DNA from: Isoperla grammatica
Lineage: Eukaryota; Arthropoda; Insecta; Plecoptera; Perlodidae
DNA length: 64,000 bases
Reading direction: 5' to 3'
Assembly: GCA_945910005.1 (NCBI GenBank)
Contig: OX246739.1
Location: forward strand, 1,890,001 to 1,954,000
Positions 9,001-61,191 of this stretch are shown here, one piece after another. Both the position numbers and the translations under genes were made by a program. Position 1 is the first letter of the stretch. The number at the start of each line of letters is the position of its first letter. The notes beneath the pieces were generated by a model. That model was not told where the DNA came from, searched no databases, and saw only the letters and a list, made by a program, of their open reading frames with translations.

Positions 9001-10080
9001 AAAATGTGATGTAAAATGCAGAGCAGATATTGGGATATAGTATATTACCCAACCTAGTGCCAGATGTTTGTAGATAATGTATTTTCATGTTATTAAATAA
9101 ATATTTATCATATTTATATTATTGTACATATGCAAAATATTAGTTCTGACCCGGTATCATAAACGTTTGTTATGTGAGAAATTTGTAATCAAACCATGTG
9201 TGGCTTGAAGCCTCCATGTGTGCCGTAATGTAAGTTAGCCAGAAGCCCTCTTAATTACGTGACTCGCATTAATTACTGTGAATGTCCATATAAACATGCT
9301 TTTTGTGTGGTCCGAGCAGAAAGTTCGTGCAAATAGTTCGGTCCGAGTGAACATAGAGTGCTCGTCGGACGTCGATGCCCAGGGGACGCTTGTTATTGGA
9401 GGACGAGGGACAATGTACACAACTCTCCATTCAGCCCGTGTTAGAGTCAGCACCCTTCCAACGGCGGCGCTGACAACCTGAATGGGCTGCGCGTTCGAAC
9501 GAACACATTGTGAAGGTTTTATTCAAACTCTCCGTGTTTCGAATAGGTTTGAAAGTGAAACAAAGAACGCTGATTTCAAGGTAACACAAAACAGTTTGCA
9601 ACAACCATACATTTACATACTTTGATTTATATTGTAAATGTTACGATTGGCGTTGCTTTCATGTTGAAACTGAGTTCTAATGGAGAAAAAAACAGGTAAA
9701 TTAATCACTGTTGGGTAAATAGTATATCGGGAAAAAGGATTACAAGCTATAAGTTGTTGTGAAATTGCAACAAAATGACCACGACTGGACTTGAACACAG
9801 TTTTCTACCTCCGTTTGGGCGTCTTATCAACTTTACCACTTTTACTGGGATTAAGAGTTTGACCCTTGGAATTTGCACAATGCACTAAGACTTGCTGAAA
9901 TCCATAATAGTGTTGACTACATCTAACCGTGTTTCTTCTATAATCACGCAAGTTAGTTGTGTTTGAAACTGTAATGGCCGCCCGGGAATCCTCAACAAGT
10001 GTCTCGTGACCTCGTGACCCCATTGTCAAGGTCACGTCCGTCTTCGCGAGCGATCTCGCGTCCCGTGACTGCTGACCATT
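6069..10080. other. No gene recognised; isolated CRE and palindrome
   Basis: No supported gene. It holds a TGACGTCA palindrome at 8776-8783, a perfect 16-bp palindrome at 8885-8900 and a GC-richer patch at 9955-10080 leading into the satellite, which includes TCAAGGTCA near 10026. Confidence 0.6.
8885..8900. repeat. Perfect 16-bp palindrome
   Basis: GCAGAAGCGCTTCTGC equals its own reverse complement. Confidence 0.9.
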
Positions 10081-13000
10081 CATCCCTCTAGACTCTGACC
10101 TTGTGTGGCGCCCCGGTTGCAGCGTGCATGTCTAGCAGAGCTCGCATGTCTTCGGGGTTGATCTTATTCATACCTCTAGACTCTGACCTTGGGAGCTGCC
10201 GGCCCCGGTTGCAGCGTGCATGTCTAGCAGAGCTCGCATATCTTCGGGGTTGATCTTATTCATCCCTCTAGACTCTGACCTTGGGAGCTGCCGGCCCCGG
10301 TTGCAGCGCGCATGTCTAGCAGAGCTCGCATGTCCTCGGGGTTGATCTTATTCATCCCTCTAGACTCTGACCTTGGGAGCTGCCGGCCCCGGTTGCAGCG
10401 CGCATGTCTAGCAGAGCTCGCATGTCCTCGGGGTTGATCTTATTCATCCCTCTAGACTCTGACCTTGGGAGATGCCGGCCCCGGTTGCAGCGCGCATGTC
10501 TAGCAGAGCTCGCATGTCCTCGGGGTTGATCTTATTCATCCCTCTAGACTCTGACCTTGGGAGCTGCCGGCCCTGGTTGCAGCGTGCATGTCTAGCAGAG
10601 CTCGCATGTCCTCGGGGTTGATCTTATTCATCCCTCTAGACTCTGACCTTGGGAGATGCCGGCCCTGGTTGCAGCGCGCATGTCTAGCAGAGCTCGCATG
10701 TCTTCGGGGTTGATCTTATTCATCCCTCTAGACTCTGACCTTGGGAGCTGCCGGCCCTGGTTGCAGCGCGCATGTCTAGCAGAGCTCGCATATCTTCGGG
10801 GTTGATCTTATTCATCCCTCTAGACTCTGACCTTGGGAGCTGCCGGCCCCGGCTGCAGCGCGCATGTCTAGCAGAGCTCGCATATCTTCGGGGTTGATCT
10901 TATTCATCCCTCTAGACTCTGACCTTGGGAGCTGCCGGCCCTGGTTGCAGCGCGCATGTCTAGCAGAGCTCGCATGTCTTCGGGGTTGATCTTATTCATC
11001 CCTCTAGACTCTGACCTTGGGAGCTGCCGGCCCTGGTTGCAGCGCGCATGTCTAGCAGAGCTCGCATATCTTCGGGGTTGATCTTATTCATCCCTCTAGA
11101 CTCTGACCTTGGGAGCTGCCGGCCCTGGTTGCAGCGCGCATGTCTAGCAGAGCACGCATATCTTCGGGGTTGATCTTATTCATCCCTCTAGACTCTGACC
11201 TTGGGAGATGCTGGCCCTGGTTGCAGCGCGCATGTCTAGCAGAGCTCGCATGTCTTCGGGGTTGATCTTATTCATCCCTCTAGACTCTGACCTTGGGAGC
11301 TGCCGGCCCTGGTTGCAGCGCGCATGTCTAGCAGAGCACGCATATCTTCGGGGTTGATCTTATTCATCCCTCTAGACTCTGACCTTGGGAGATGCTGGCC
11401 CTGGTTGCAGCGCGCATGTCTAGCAGAGCTCGCATGTCTTCGGGGTTGATCTTATTCATCCCTCTAGACTCTGACCTTGGGAGCTGCCGGCTCCGGTTGC
11501 AGCGCGCATGTCTAGCAGAGCTCGCATGTCTTCGGGGTTGATCTTATTCATCCCTCTAGACTCTGACCTTGGGAGCTGCCGGCCCTGGTTGCAGCGCGCA
11601 TGTCTAGCAGAGCTCGCATGTCCTCGGGGTTGATCTTATTCATCCCTCTAGACTCTGACCTTGGGAGATGCCGGCCCTGGTTGCAGCGCGCATGTCTAGC
11701 AGAGCTCGCATGTCTTCGGGGTTGATCTTATTCATCCCTCTAGACTCTGACCTTGGGAGCTGCCGGCCCCGGTTGCAGCGTGCATGTCTAGCAGAGCTCG
11801 CATATCTTCGGGGTTGATCTTATTCATCCCTCTAGACTCTGACCTTGGGAGATGCCGGCCCTGGTTGCAGCGCGCATGTCTAGCAGAGCTCGCATGTCTT
11901 CGGGGTTGATCTTATTCATCCCTCTAGACTCTGACCTTGGGAGCTGCCGGCCCCGGTTGCAGCGCGCATGTCTAGCAGAGCTCGCATGTCTTCGGGGTTG
12001 ATCTTCTTCATCCCTCTAGACTCTGACCTTGGGAGATGCCGGCCCTGGTTGCAGCGCGCATGTCTAGCAGAGCTCGCATGTCCTCGGGGTTGATCTTATT
12101 CATCCCTCTAGACTCTGACCTTGGGAGCTGCCGGCCCTGGTTGCAGCGCGCATGTCTAGCAGAGCTCGCATGTCATCGGGGTTGATCTTATTCATCCCTC
12201 TAGACTCTGACCTTGGGAGCTGCCGGCCCTGGTTGCAGCGCGCATGTCTAGCAGAGCTCGCATATCTTCGGGGTTGATCTTATTCATCCCTCTAGACTCT
12301 GACCTTGGGAGCTGCCGGCCCCGGCTGCAGCGCGCATGTCTAGCAGAGCTCGCATGTCTTCGGGGTTGATCTTATTCATCCCTCTAGACTCTGACCTTGG
12401 GAGCTGCCGGCTCTGGTTGCAGCGCGCATGTCTAGCAGAGCTCGCATGTCTTCGGGGTTGATCTTATTCATCCCTCTAGACTCTGACCTTGGGAGCTGCC
12501 GGCCCTGGTTGCAGCGTGCATGTCTAGCAGAGCTCGCATGTCTTCGGGGTTGATCTTATTCATCCCTCTAGACTCTGACCTTGGGAGCTGCCGGCCCTGG
12601 TTGCAGCGCGCATGTCTAGCAGAGCTCGCATGTCTTCGGGGTTGATCTTATTCATCCCTCTAGACTCTGACCTTGGGAGCTGCCGGCCCTGGTTGCAGCG
12701 TGCATGTCTAGCAGAGCTCGCATATCTTCGGGGTTGATCTTATTCATCCCTCTAGACTCTGACCTTGGGAGCTGCCGGCCCTGGTTGCAGCGCGCATGTC
12801 TAGCAGAGCTCGCATGTCTTCGGGGTTGATCTTATTCATCCCTCTAGACTCTGACCTTGGGAGCTGCCGGCCCTGGTTGCAGCGCGCATGTCTAGCAGAG
12901 CTCGCATGTCTTCGGGGTTGATCTTATTCATCCCTCTAGACTCTGACCTTGGGAGCTGCCGGCCCTGGTTGCAGCGTGCATGTCTAGCAGAGCTCGCATG

Positions 13001-13992
13001 TCTTCGGGGTTGATCTTATTCATCCCTCTAGACTCTGACCTTGGGAGCTGCCGGCCCTGGTTGCAGCGCGCATGTCTAGCAGAGCTCGCATGTCTTCGGG
13101 GTTGATCTTATTCATCCCTCTAGACTCTGACCTTGGGAGCTGCCGGCCCCGGTTGCAGCGCGCATGTCTAGCAGAGCTCGCATGTCTTCGGGGTTGATCT
13201 TATTCATCCCTCTAGACTCTGACCTTGGGAGCTGCCGGCCCTGGTTGCAGCGCGCATGTCTAGCAGAGCACGCATGTCTTCGGGGTTGATCTTATTCATC
13301 CCTCTAGACTCTGACCTTGGGAGCTGCCGGCCCCGGTTGCAGCGCGCATGTCTAGCAGAGCTCGCATGTCTTCGGGGTTGATCTTATTCATCCCTCTAGA
13401 CTCTGACCTTGGGAGCTGCCGGCCCTGGTTGCAGCGCGCATGTCTAGCAGAGCACGCATGTCTTCGGGGTTGATCTTATTCATCCCTCTAGACTCTGACC
13501 TTGGGAGCTGCCGGCCCCGGTTGCAGCGCGCATGTCTAGCAGAGCTCGCATGTCTTCGGGGTTGATCTTATTCATCCCTCTAGACTCTGACCTTGGGAGC
13601 TGCCGGCCCTGGTTGCAGCGCGCATGTCTAGCAGAGCTCGCATGTCATCGGGGTTGATCTTATTCATACCTCTAGACTCTGACCTTGGGAGCTGCCGGCC
13701 CTGGTTGCAGCGTGCATGTCTAGCAGAGCTCGCATGTCTTCGGGGTTGATCTTATTCATCCCTCTAGACTCTGACCTTGGGAGCTGCCGGCCCTGGTTGC
13801 AGCGCGCATGTCTAGCAGAGCTCGCATGTCTTCGGGGTTGATCTTATTCATCCCTCTAGACTCTGACCTTGGGAGATGCCGGCCCTGGTTGCAGCGTGCA
13901 TGTCTAGCAGAGCTCGCATGTCTTCGGGGTTGATCTTATTCATCCCTCTAGACTCTGACCTTGGGAGCTTCCCTGTCTTCGGGGTTGATCCT
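10081..13992. repeat. 92-bp satellite/minisatellite array, 43 units
   Basis: Units begin CATCCCTCTAGACTCTGACC and end GGGGTTGATCTTATT. The first (10081) is a divergent 88-bp version. From 10169 onward unit starts fall every 92 bp, and 10261 to 13941 is exactly 40 periods with no net insertion or deletion. The last unit (13941) has an internal deletion of about 42 bp and ends near 13992. A typical unit is about 58% GC with about five CpGs, against AT-rich flanks. Units differ at a few recurring positions: GGCCCCGG or GGCCCTGG, GCGCGC or GCGTGC, CATGTC or CATATC, GAGCTG or GAGATG, and AGCTCG or AGCACG. All frames contain stops, and 92 is not a multiple of 3, so it does not code for protein. There are no unique spacers, so it is not a CRISPR array. 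Confidence 0.98.
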
Positions 13993-37900: not shown

Positions 37901-38929
37901 TAGACAACTACACCCAACATATTAAATAACATATGGGCCAAGGAATTTCGAGTGATATTAATTTATGTGTTTGAAAGAATCTCTTATTCAAGTCTAGAGT
38001 CTAGTTAAACGTTTACCTAACCACACATGAGCTACTGTACTAAAGTTGGGAAAATAACAATATTCCACGAATATTCTGTGCAGGGTGTGTGATTATAACT
38101 AATATGTGGTGAGTTATCTCAAACGCTGGCGCTGTGGTTAATGTAAAACATGTTATTGAATGCGCCGATCTGTATTGCACGGAAAACGAGATTGATTTTA
38201 GTAAATTTAATCAAATATTGTCTTTGGAGATGCGATCATTAAAGCTAGTAAAACACATTTTTGAAGGGTTCTGGATAAATTATGAAATTTGGAATTAAAG
38301 CCTTCCAGTTTCAACAACAAGAATATTTTCAACGCTCTACTAAATTTTGTAGGACGTTTGGGAATATTCACTCTTCTTCCTGTAAATTGAAGAGAGCTTG
38401 AATAATTGATTGTTTTTCCCTCAAGAACCAAATGAGTTAACGAACGCTACTTGCCGTCAAAATCAAAATGAATTTTTTATGATGTATTTTAATGCTCGGA
38501 AATATAATTAAGTTGCGGATGTTTACAAAATCGTTCGATCTAATGAAGTAAAAAATACATCATCATCGGCATCAGCGATGGAGAACCCAGGTCATCTATG
38601 AATGTCTTGATCGTTAGCGGAGAGAATCATGTTTGTCATCCATGTCCGACAGTCAATAGGCAAACTATGGTTACACTTATCATGGTGTATTGTTGTAGTA
38701 CCTAAGTATTCCGTAAAATGTGAGAAAGAAAACAGTGAAATCAGTACCCATAACACGGGAGCCGAAGTTTTAGTAAGAAACTGTGAGATGAAGTGAATGG
38801 GCCCCATGAAACAGACACACGTTGTACTTTCAAAATCGCATAGTTTAATTGCATTTTGATATTATAACATCAAAGTTTGAGTACAATCTTCAGTTAAATG
38901 ATTGATATTTGTTGTCTGTTGGTTTTCAG
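34931..38929. other. No gene recognised; presumed upstream intron of the GPCR
   Basis: The segment directly before the TM2 exon should be intron if the upstream exon is farther 5'. I looked here for a TM1 exon ending in phase 1 and did not see one. The frame at 35251-35547 is open for 98 codons but has no receptor motifs. Confidence 0.5.
37446..37560. mobile_element. Possible hAT (Charlie/MER5-like) terminal fragment
   Basis: CAGTGGTTCTCAATCTTTT at 37446-37464 resembles the conserved end of Charlie-type hAT elements. The matching opposite terminus and a target duplication were not found, so this may be a solitary truncated end. Confidence 0.3.
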
Positions 38930-39079
38930 GCTACTCCGCGGCTGCCCTGATGGCGATCCTCTTCGCGATACCCTTCGGTCTGCGAGTACTGATTCACCGG
39001 GAGACTGGAAGCTGGACCAACATGCCACAAGCATTCTATCACGCACACCTAGAGCTTTTCCTGGGCAACGGCTGCTTGG
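38930..39079 (+). CDS. Internal exon of class A GPCR (upper TM2, ECL1, start of TM3)
   Basis: This 150-nt exon is flanked by TTTTCAG at its 5' end and G|GTAGGT at its 3' end, and both junctions are phase 1. It encodes 49 whole codons: a hydrophobic segment starting YSAAALMAILFAIPFGL (upper TM2), a polar loop with RETGSWTNMP (first extracellular loop), then YHAHLELFLGNGC, which is the beginning of TM3. Its final G joins the GC at 60353 to make a glycine codon, giving NGCLG followed by VGVMMLLALTVERY, a normal TM3 ending in an ERY version of the DRY motif. This in-phase join is the main evidence that the two exons belong to one gene. The upstream exon with the N-terminus, TM1 and lower TM2 was not found in the window. 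The last 49 nt of this exon are part of a 69-bp tandem repeat that carries the splice donor with it. The receptor class is inferred from motifs; the exact orthologue is not known. Confidence 0.85.
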
Positions 39080-39379
39080 GTAGGTACACCCACACACACG
39101 CACACGCACACGCACACCTAGAGCTATTCCTGGGCAACGGCTGCTTGGGTAGGTACACCCACACACAAGCATTCTACCACGCACACCTAGAGCTTTTCCT
39201 GGGCAACGGCTGCTTGGGTAGGTACACCCACACACACGCACACGCACACGCACACCTAGAGCTATTCCTGGGCAACGGCTGCTTGGGTAGGTACACCCAC
39301 ACACACGCACACGCACACGCACACCTAGAGCTATTCCTGGGCAACGGCTGCTTGGGTAGGTACACCCACGCATACGAAC
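39031..39379 (+). repeat. Five-copy 69-bp tandem repeat containing the exon end and splice donor
   Basis: Five copies of the exon end (CACACCTAGAGCT, then the codons for FLGNGCLG) are each followed by the identical donor TTGG|GTAGGTAC and a CAC-rich stretch. The donor GT falls at 39080, 39149, 39218, 39287 and 39356, so the spacing is exactly 69 bp each time. Sixty-nine is 23 codons, and the frame stays open through all copies to a stop at 39445-39447. Copies 1 and 3 begin with GCATTCTA(T/C)CACG and carry CTTTTC; copies 2, 4 and 5 begin with ACGCACACG and carry CTATTC. Copies 2-5 lie in the intron if the first donor is used. Confidence 0.95.
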
Positions 39380-39878: not shown

Positions 39879-40010
39879 CTGTAGGCTGTAGGCTGTAGGC
39901 TGTAGGCTGTAGGCTGTAGGCTGTAGGCTGTAGGCTATAGGCTGTAGGCTCTTGGCTGTAGGCTGTAGGCTGTAGGCTGCTGTAGGCTGTAGGCTGTAGG
40001 CTGTAGGCTG
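39879..40010. repeat. 7-bp tandem repeat (TAGGCTG), about 19 copies
   Basis: CTGTAGG is iterated with a few variants (TATAGGC, TCTTGGC) and one slip. Confidence 0.96.
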
Positions 40011-60310: not shown

Positions 60311-60352
60311 AATGAAAAATCTAAGATTAATGAGTTGTACCTGTTGTTGCAG

Positions 60353-61191
60353 GCGTGGGCGTGATGATGCTTCTCGCCCTCACCGTGGAGCGCTACGTGT
60401 CAGTGTGTCACCCCGGCCAGCCCCGCCCCATGATGGGTCAGCCCCGACTCATCGTCACACTTATCCTCTTGCTCACCTTCATCGTGTACCTACCCGGCGT
60501 GTTCCGGTGCCGCCTCGCCCGGTGCATCGCCCCCTCCGGCCTGCTCCTCTACCGCAAGCAAGACAACACCGCCTTCCTGCACTCCGTCTACTACTCCATC
60601 TACAAGGTCGTGCTGGAGGTCGTGTTCAAGGTCGGGCCGACGGTGCTGCTCGCCGCGCTCAACCTGCGCATCATGATCGTGTACCGACACTCGTGTGACC
60701 GACGCCGCCGGATGACGTCAAGCCGAGCCACGTCCGATGATGACCCGCGCAAGTTCGCCGAGGAGCGAAGACTCATCCTCCTTCTGGGCTCCACCTCCAT
60801 CCTCTTCCTCGTGTGTGTGTCCCCCATGGTCATCCTCAACGTCACCCTCTCCCAGCAGAACCTGAGCCTCTTCTCGTACCAAGTGTTCCGCGCCGTCGCC
60901 AACCTGCTGGAAGTCACCAACTACTCCATTACGTTCTACATATATTGTCTCTTCTCCGAGGACTTTCGAAACACTCTGTTACGGACTGTGCGTTGGCCTT
61001 GGAGGACCACTCCCACGTCCGCCTACCCCCCGAGCACCCCCCTCGCTCGCAAGCTGATCACCCCCCGACAGAGCACCCCTCCCACCACCACGTCCACTAA
61101 TAACCCGTCATCACTCACTTCCGCTTCCTCTAAGATTCTCTGGCTCGGTTGCCCCTGTTGGTACCAAGAACCGACGCGGGAGAGCGTCTAA
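60353..61191 (+). CDS. Terminal exon of class A GPCR (TM3-TM7 and C-tail), FMRFamide-receptor/B0563.6-like
   Basis: This is the last coding exon of a plasma-membrane rhodopsin-family receptor. The acceptor is TTGTTGCAG; the frame runs 278 whole codons to TAA at 61189-61191. Counting from the first whole codon: rest of TM3 at 1-18 with ERY at 12-14, TM4 about 31-50, extracellular loop 2 with Cys52 and Cys57, TM5 about 78-110, a basic Ser/Arg-rich intracellular loop 3, TM6 about 139-165 with CVSP in place of CWxP, loop 3 with possible N-glycosylation sites (NVT, NLS), TM7 with NYSITFYIY in place of NPxxY, then helix 8 (LFSEDFRNTL) and a Thr/Pro/Ser-rich tail. This motif set is familiar from protostome orphan and peptide receptors annotated FMRFamide-receptor or B0563.6-like, so a neuropeptide ligand and G-protein coupling are inferred, not shown. 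The exon is GC-rich with mostly C/G third positions, unlike its AT-rich flanks. Class A assignment is firm; subfamily is moderate. Confidence 0.92.

Follow-up and report, generated by a model that had tools for sequence, protein, structure and literature searches.

Coding minisatellites that are seeded by microsatellites are built from a short unit, their copies are near-identical, and they undergo unequal exchange. The array dealt with here, a ladder of five splice donors in a receptor gene of the plecopteran Isoperla grammatica, differs from these in that its unit extends across the exon-intron border. Intron gain by tandem duplication, as described in a review (PMC3443670) and two further reports (PMC4974935, PMC3629103), resembles the ladder in that a short tandem duplication carries splice sites along. 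In potato RdRp (PMC4974935), the duplicated segment spans an intron-exon boundary, and the units of the 24-nt repeats of fission yeast carry a splice-like AGGC (PMC3629103). In these cases, it is the acceptor side or an internal proto-splice site that is copied and a new intron that is made, whereas the ladders of I. grammatica contain the 5′ splice site of a real exon in as many as 51 copies, and a functional new acceptor is not apparent; the only motif of the receptor array that, by eye, invites comparison with an intron-gain pair is CACCTAG. The splice-affecting VNTR of MIR137HG resembles the ladder in that repeat number goes with alternative donor choice; there, the donors lie outside the repeat, whereas in the ladder a donor lies inside each unit (PMC6692358). 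Identical donors in series on one exon are likewise known from minigenes, which carry two engineered sites, as compared with five to 51 natural sites in the ladders (PMC9225289). No report of tandem copies of an exon end together with its donor was found among the literature matches listed, which cover few subscription papers; PMC1559703, considered as a precedent, is not about exon-end-plus-donor copies.

The receptor ladder lies in the window, that is, the whole stretch of 64,000 nt that was analyzed and to which coordinates without a contig handle refer. Sequence similarity identifies the gene, which codes for a receptor of the rhodopsin type, as an ortholog of the insect orphan GPCR B0563.6/CG33639. 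There are 217 homologous proteins in the database at E ≤ 0.001 (best 4.2e-117); the top matches (120 listed of the 217) come from cockroach, termite, and stick insect, many of them named “probable G-protein coupled receptor B0563.6”. The Drosophila member among the listed homologs is CG33639, which appears as an orphan receptor in PMC9624432. The TM1 exon is located on the same contig and strand (C7:1785168-1785314) and ends with ATGCGAG/GTAAGC, the slash marking the exon border. Introns of about 143.6 kb upstream and 21.3 kb downstream flank the exon which bears the ladder. The three receptor exons, when joined, contain no stop, and the protein joins at the exon borders read MRG-YSAA and CLG-VGV, with MRG at the end of the TM1 exon. 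The features are as follows.

38930..39079, plus strand: receptor exon (TM2, loop 1, and first half of TM3), 150 nt, phase 1 at both ends, acceptor AG at 38928-38929
39031..39099, plus strand: unit 1, type A (QAFYHAH-LELFLGNGCLG), original exon end and intron start
39040..39048, plus strand: CACGCACAC, a 9-nt exonic word matching the ACACGC hexamer, left edge of the type B copies
39080..39085, plus strand: donor 1, TTGG/GTAGGT, taken as the ancestral exon end from the join length in 107/109 homologs, U1 duplex -11.4
39100..39168, plus strand: unit 2, type B (HAHAHAH), with donor 2 at 39149
39169..39237, plus strand: unit 3, type A, with donor 3 at 39218
39238..39306, plus strand: unit 4, type B, with donor 4 at 39287
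39307..39375, plus strand: unit 5, type B, with donor 5 at 39356; the intron departs from the repeat at 39370
60353..61191, plus strand: last coding exon (rest of TM3 to TM7 and tail), acceptor AG at 60351-60352, 7tm_1 at E 2.1e-10

Five units of 69 bp, all in frame, occupy positions 39031-39369, each combining the last part of the exon, the donor, and 20 nt of the intron, and the exon part of every unit ends at an identical TTGG/GTAGGTAC donor. The GTs start at 39080, 39149, 39218, 39287, and 39356, with 69 nt between neighbors, exactly as stated in a preliminary description of this DNA, and TRF returns the same period (score 607, period 69, 5.1 copies, 92% matches). The array thus fits the definition of a minisatellite (units of 10-100 bp in tandem with high identity). 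The preliminary description had further taken the last 49 nt of the exon to be repeated throughout. This is true of copies 1 and 3, whereas copies 2, 4, and 5 match the last 40 nt of the exon, bar one silent T to A exchange, and are preceded there by hexamer repeat; the last exon base has been corrected to 39079. The order of the units is A-B-A-B-B, where type A codes for QAFYHAH and type B for HAHAHAH before the common LELFLGNGCLG; a single base distinguishes unit 1 from unit 3 and unit 2 from unit 4, and two bases distinguish unit 4 from unit 5.

That the end of a GPCR exon is repeated with its donor in an open frame was borne out by the presence of 7tm_1 in the last exon and by the array itself, across which only the receptor frame is open, both other frames having a stop in each unit. 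Each of the five donors gives an open frame when joined to the acceptor at 60351-60352, the predicted proteins, TM1 exon included, being 405, 428, 451, 474, and 497 amino acids long (+23 per step). The same joining upheld the view that every unit re-encodes HLELFLGNGCLG and that any donor leads to the same TM3 join. In U1 pairing, the five donors are equal, are the best among the 1394 GTs of the 21-kb intron, and reveal no decay. A search of the genome (874 Mb) with the array DNA gave one full match and no second allele. An allelic or second copy in the assembly was considered and is ruled out by this single full match, the nearest paralog (one open frame) being 33% identical. The same intron contains, about 490 bp past the ladder, a CTGTAGG heptamer array of 18 copies (window 39879-40010). 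At 10078-13969 of the window, a 92-bp unit is present in 42 copies with a GC content of about 57%, the window being mostly at 31-43%.

For comparison of the join, a set of 134 homologs was used, composed of the 120 listed of 217 and of 14 from a search for long isoforms. The TM3 pattern is matched by 109 of these; the remaining 25 were left out, among them P0003, P0007, P0008, and P0014, which start at or after the join, and P0006, which skips the exon. The CLG-VGV spacing is kept in 107 of the 109 scorable homologs, which are known from their proteins alone and not from their introns, and in these exactly 23 residues lie between the H of HLELF and the E of ERY. The two exceptions are P0119 with 21 residues and P0043 from Carabus blaptoides with 55, the latter carrying at the same join an unrelated insert of 32 residues, which may be a prediction error. 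Because the 107 homologs are devoid of an insertion at the join, donor 1 is taken as ancestral and the other donors as a later addition. The search for long isoforms, in which scoring was confined to the 7998 candidates with the most words in common, yielded 72 proteins, none of them spanning the array and none covering more than 27% of the query part. In a tree of 27 rows with midpoint root, the receptor groups with cockroach, termite, stick insect, grasshopper, dragonfly, and mayfly, its nearest neighbor standing at 81/76 support; wasps, beetles, and flies fall apart from this group. In isoform X2 of Bacillus rossius (P0006), as annotated, exactly the orthologous symmetric exon is missing, so that MRG is followed by VGVMM. 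From this isoform, exon skipping may occur in the B0563.6/CG33639 family.

Two further ladders are present in the same genome, both at predicted exon ends. One of them, found by the genome search (874 Mb) with the receptor array DNA, is located at C5:7108503-7108993 in the P-domain exon of a furin-like proprotein convertase (PF01483, E 1.2e-19). It has six GAG/GTGAGG donors with spacings of 224, 63, 70, 63, and 70, and one of the six keeps the frame without a stop. A 182-bp ACACGC tract separates its donors 1 and 2 (1510-1691 of C5:7107000-7111000; ladder region 1303-2027). The other, revealed by a genome-wide pattern scan, is found on the minus strand at C13:25708556-25712232, at the end of an alkaline phosphatase exon (PF00245, E 4.9e-13). 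It is the longest ladder seen (within C13:25707000-25716500), with 51 GGTGAG donors over 3.7 kb and spacings that are multiples of 6 in 45 of 50 cases; 11 of the 51 donors keep the frame without a stop. From the loss of frame in the sister ladders it follows that selection does not generally keep the frame. Selection for frame as the cause of the receptor units, a candidate explanation, is weakened accordingly, given that only 1/6 and 11/51 of the sister donors are in frame.

The ladder is likely a small minisatellite that arose from a CAC-rich exonic word against an ACACGC-like repeat at the intron start, with the array predicted to act as intron. The CAC-rich word would have slipped or mispaired against the intronic repeat, the stretch between the two would have been copied, and, by virtue of its position in this stretch, the splice donor would have been copied along. 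In all three genes, the copies start at an exonic CAC word and run through the donor into an ACACGC-type repeat. The start word lies 40 nt before the donor in the receptor (CACGCACAC) and 42 nt (CACAC) and 49 nt (CACGC) before it in the other two genes. Among 20,000 random exon-like 60-nt tails, 0.19% contain a hexamer match of 9 nt and 8.8% one of at least 6 nt. The start words of the furin-like and alkaline phosphatase genes comprise only 5 nt and are by themselves nothing unusual, and the alkaline phosphatase exon contains, 23 nt ahead of its donor, a longer word, CACGCA, that the copies do not use as their start. Slippage at the CA-rich intron start, which the preliminary description had mentioned as the chance alternative, is thus favored as the origin by the copy starts at hexamer-matching CAC words in three genes.

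For the receptor, the first copy would have been 51 bp long, reaching from CACGCA in the exon (39040) to CACGCA in the intron start. CACGCA is the sole word of at least 6 nt that is common to the receptor exon and the first 61 nt of the intron past the last copy, and its offset is 51 bp. Enlargement of this copy by three hexamers would lead to 69 bp, and an A-B-B array crossing over two units out of step with itself would give A-B-A-B-B in register. Maintenance of the frame would need only a 1-in-3 first event, after which homologous exchange would preserve the 69 bp. This 51+18 history is one of several possible. Repeat number would be expected to vary between individuals, and the receptor array as a whole is probably a nearly neutral, hexamer-driven exon-end minisatellite.

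A different role had been suggested for the ladder in the preliminary description, namely, that several donors could be used and a receptor size series could be made, with isoforms containing 0, 23, 46, 69, or 92 extra His-rich residues in loop 1. All five isoforms are indeed open with the TM3 join kept, which a model of use would predict as well (by chance, the probability is 1 in 3 for the first copy), and the identical donors outrank all other GTs of the intron in U1 pairing; their best pairing and lack of decay count against a silent array, though the copies are young. Use of the ladder is, however, left without support by the absence of the insertion from 107/109 scorable homologs, by the database matches, 0/72 of which span the array (coverage of the query part, 27% at most; 7998 candidates scored), and by the sister ladders, which are mostly out of frame. 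An extra unit would, moreover, put the hydrophobic LELFLGNGCLG (mean hydropathy 1.12) outside the membrane. Donor choice also speaks against use. In minigenes (PMC9225289), the upstream site is favored when an exon flanked by long introns carries donors of nearly equal strength, and it was used exclusively in five minigenes with strong donors; weakening of both donors led mainly to exon skipping in the larger constructs. Each of these minigenes was built with two donors and with introns of 365 nt, and insects may differ from them in donor choice. Since introns of about 144 and 21 kb flank the receptor exon and its donors are identical, donor 1 is predicted to be used by default, whereby the array would act as intron and the normal receptor would be made; by analogy with the minigenes, it is predicted that the extra donors mostly remain idle. 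Were later donors used in a leaky manner, the first extracellular loop would grow by 23 amino acids per step, with frame and TM3 left intact. A size series is, on balance, unlikely; if true, it could tune ligand or metal binding.

The idea that spare donors are kept as a rescue for a mutated donor 1 would agree with their being intact and in frame, but a rare back-up would be under weak selection, the near-identity of the units is explained by their youth, and spare donors such as those of the furin-like ladder would give frameshifts or stops, which makes such buffering very improbable. Birth of introns within the array is extremely unlikely. It would require that the donor of a unit pairs with CACCTAG/AG in the next unit, so that 42-nt pieces (39080-39121) are removed in frame; 42 is a multiple of 3, and an E codon followed by LFLGNGCLG would be left, as read by hand, but the piece offers only CA repeat without a pyrimidine tract, and an animal intron of 42 nt would be very short. 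Near-identical short tandem copies are difficult to assemble, and the data come from one assembly, so that the repeat number could be wrong or the array absent. Such an artefact is nevertheless highly improbable in view of the ordered A-B-A-B-B differences between units, the location on a contig of 75.8 Mb, and the occurrence of similarly built ladders in three unrelated genes.

Understood as hexamer-driven minisatellites, the ladders illustrate how a microsatellite located where an intron begins probably captures and multiplies an exon end. Exon ends captured in this way could lengthen proteins, break genes, or remain silent. With five and six identical and 51 near-identical donors in series, they constitute natural experiments in which the spliceosome has to choose between equivalent sites. 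A more far-reaching interpretation would see in the recurrent ladders a general expandability of exon ends conferred by ACACGC-type repeats beside 5′ splice sites, with unequal exchange of a 3n unit, such as that of the receptor, creating a heritable dial of extracellular-loop length that could be read by splicing; this is regarded as doubtful.

How far such arrays extend over the genome was approached with pattern scans restricted to some of the donor words. For GGTGAG-hexamer-GGTGAG, the whole genome contained 48 matches, confined to two loci, both at predicted exon ends, and the control contained none. With GGTAAG instead, a single match was obtained (none in the control), with the repeat present at two C1 places where no exon was seen by eye. 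The GGTAGG version with CACACAC, whose gap limit, by count, could not reach the receptor ladder of the window, gave 237 matches versus 243 in the control. With results this sparse and heterogeneous, no claim is made that arrays are enriched at real donors. Hexamer pairs with other sequence between them matched 277 times in the genome and 315 times in a backward-read control, which says little, as reversal of the hexamer yields the same repeat again, and the 277 are not shown to be above chance. Nine distinct loci, all on C1, were inspected from the 30 loci cut out for the 277 matches, and six of them hold an array. In our reading, exon-end ladders are the subset of hexamer-flanked arrays that happens to span a donor. 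At C2:81812-82050, a 57-bp array is found, the unit of which carries, by eye, a tRNA-like GGTTCGAGTC stretch beside ACACGC. Many of the listed matches of the GGTAGG repeat fall within C15:997387-1050657 at a spacing of 79 bp, which likely represents a large satellite.
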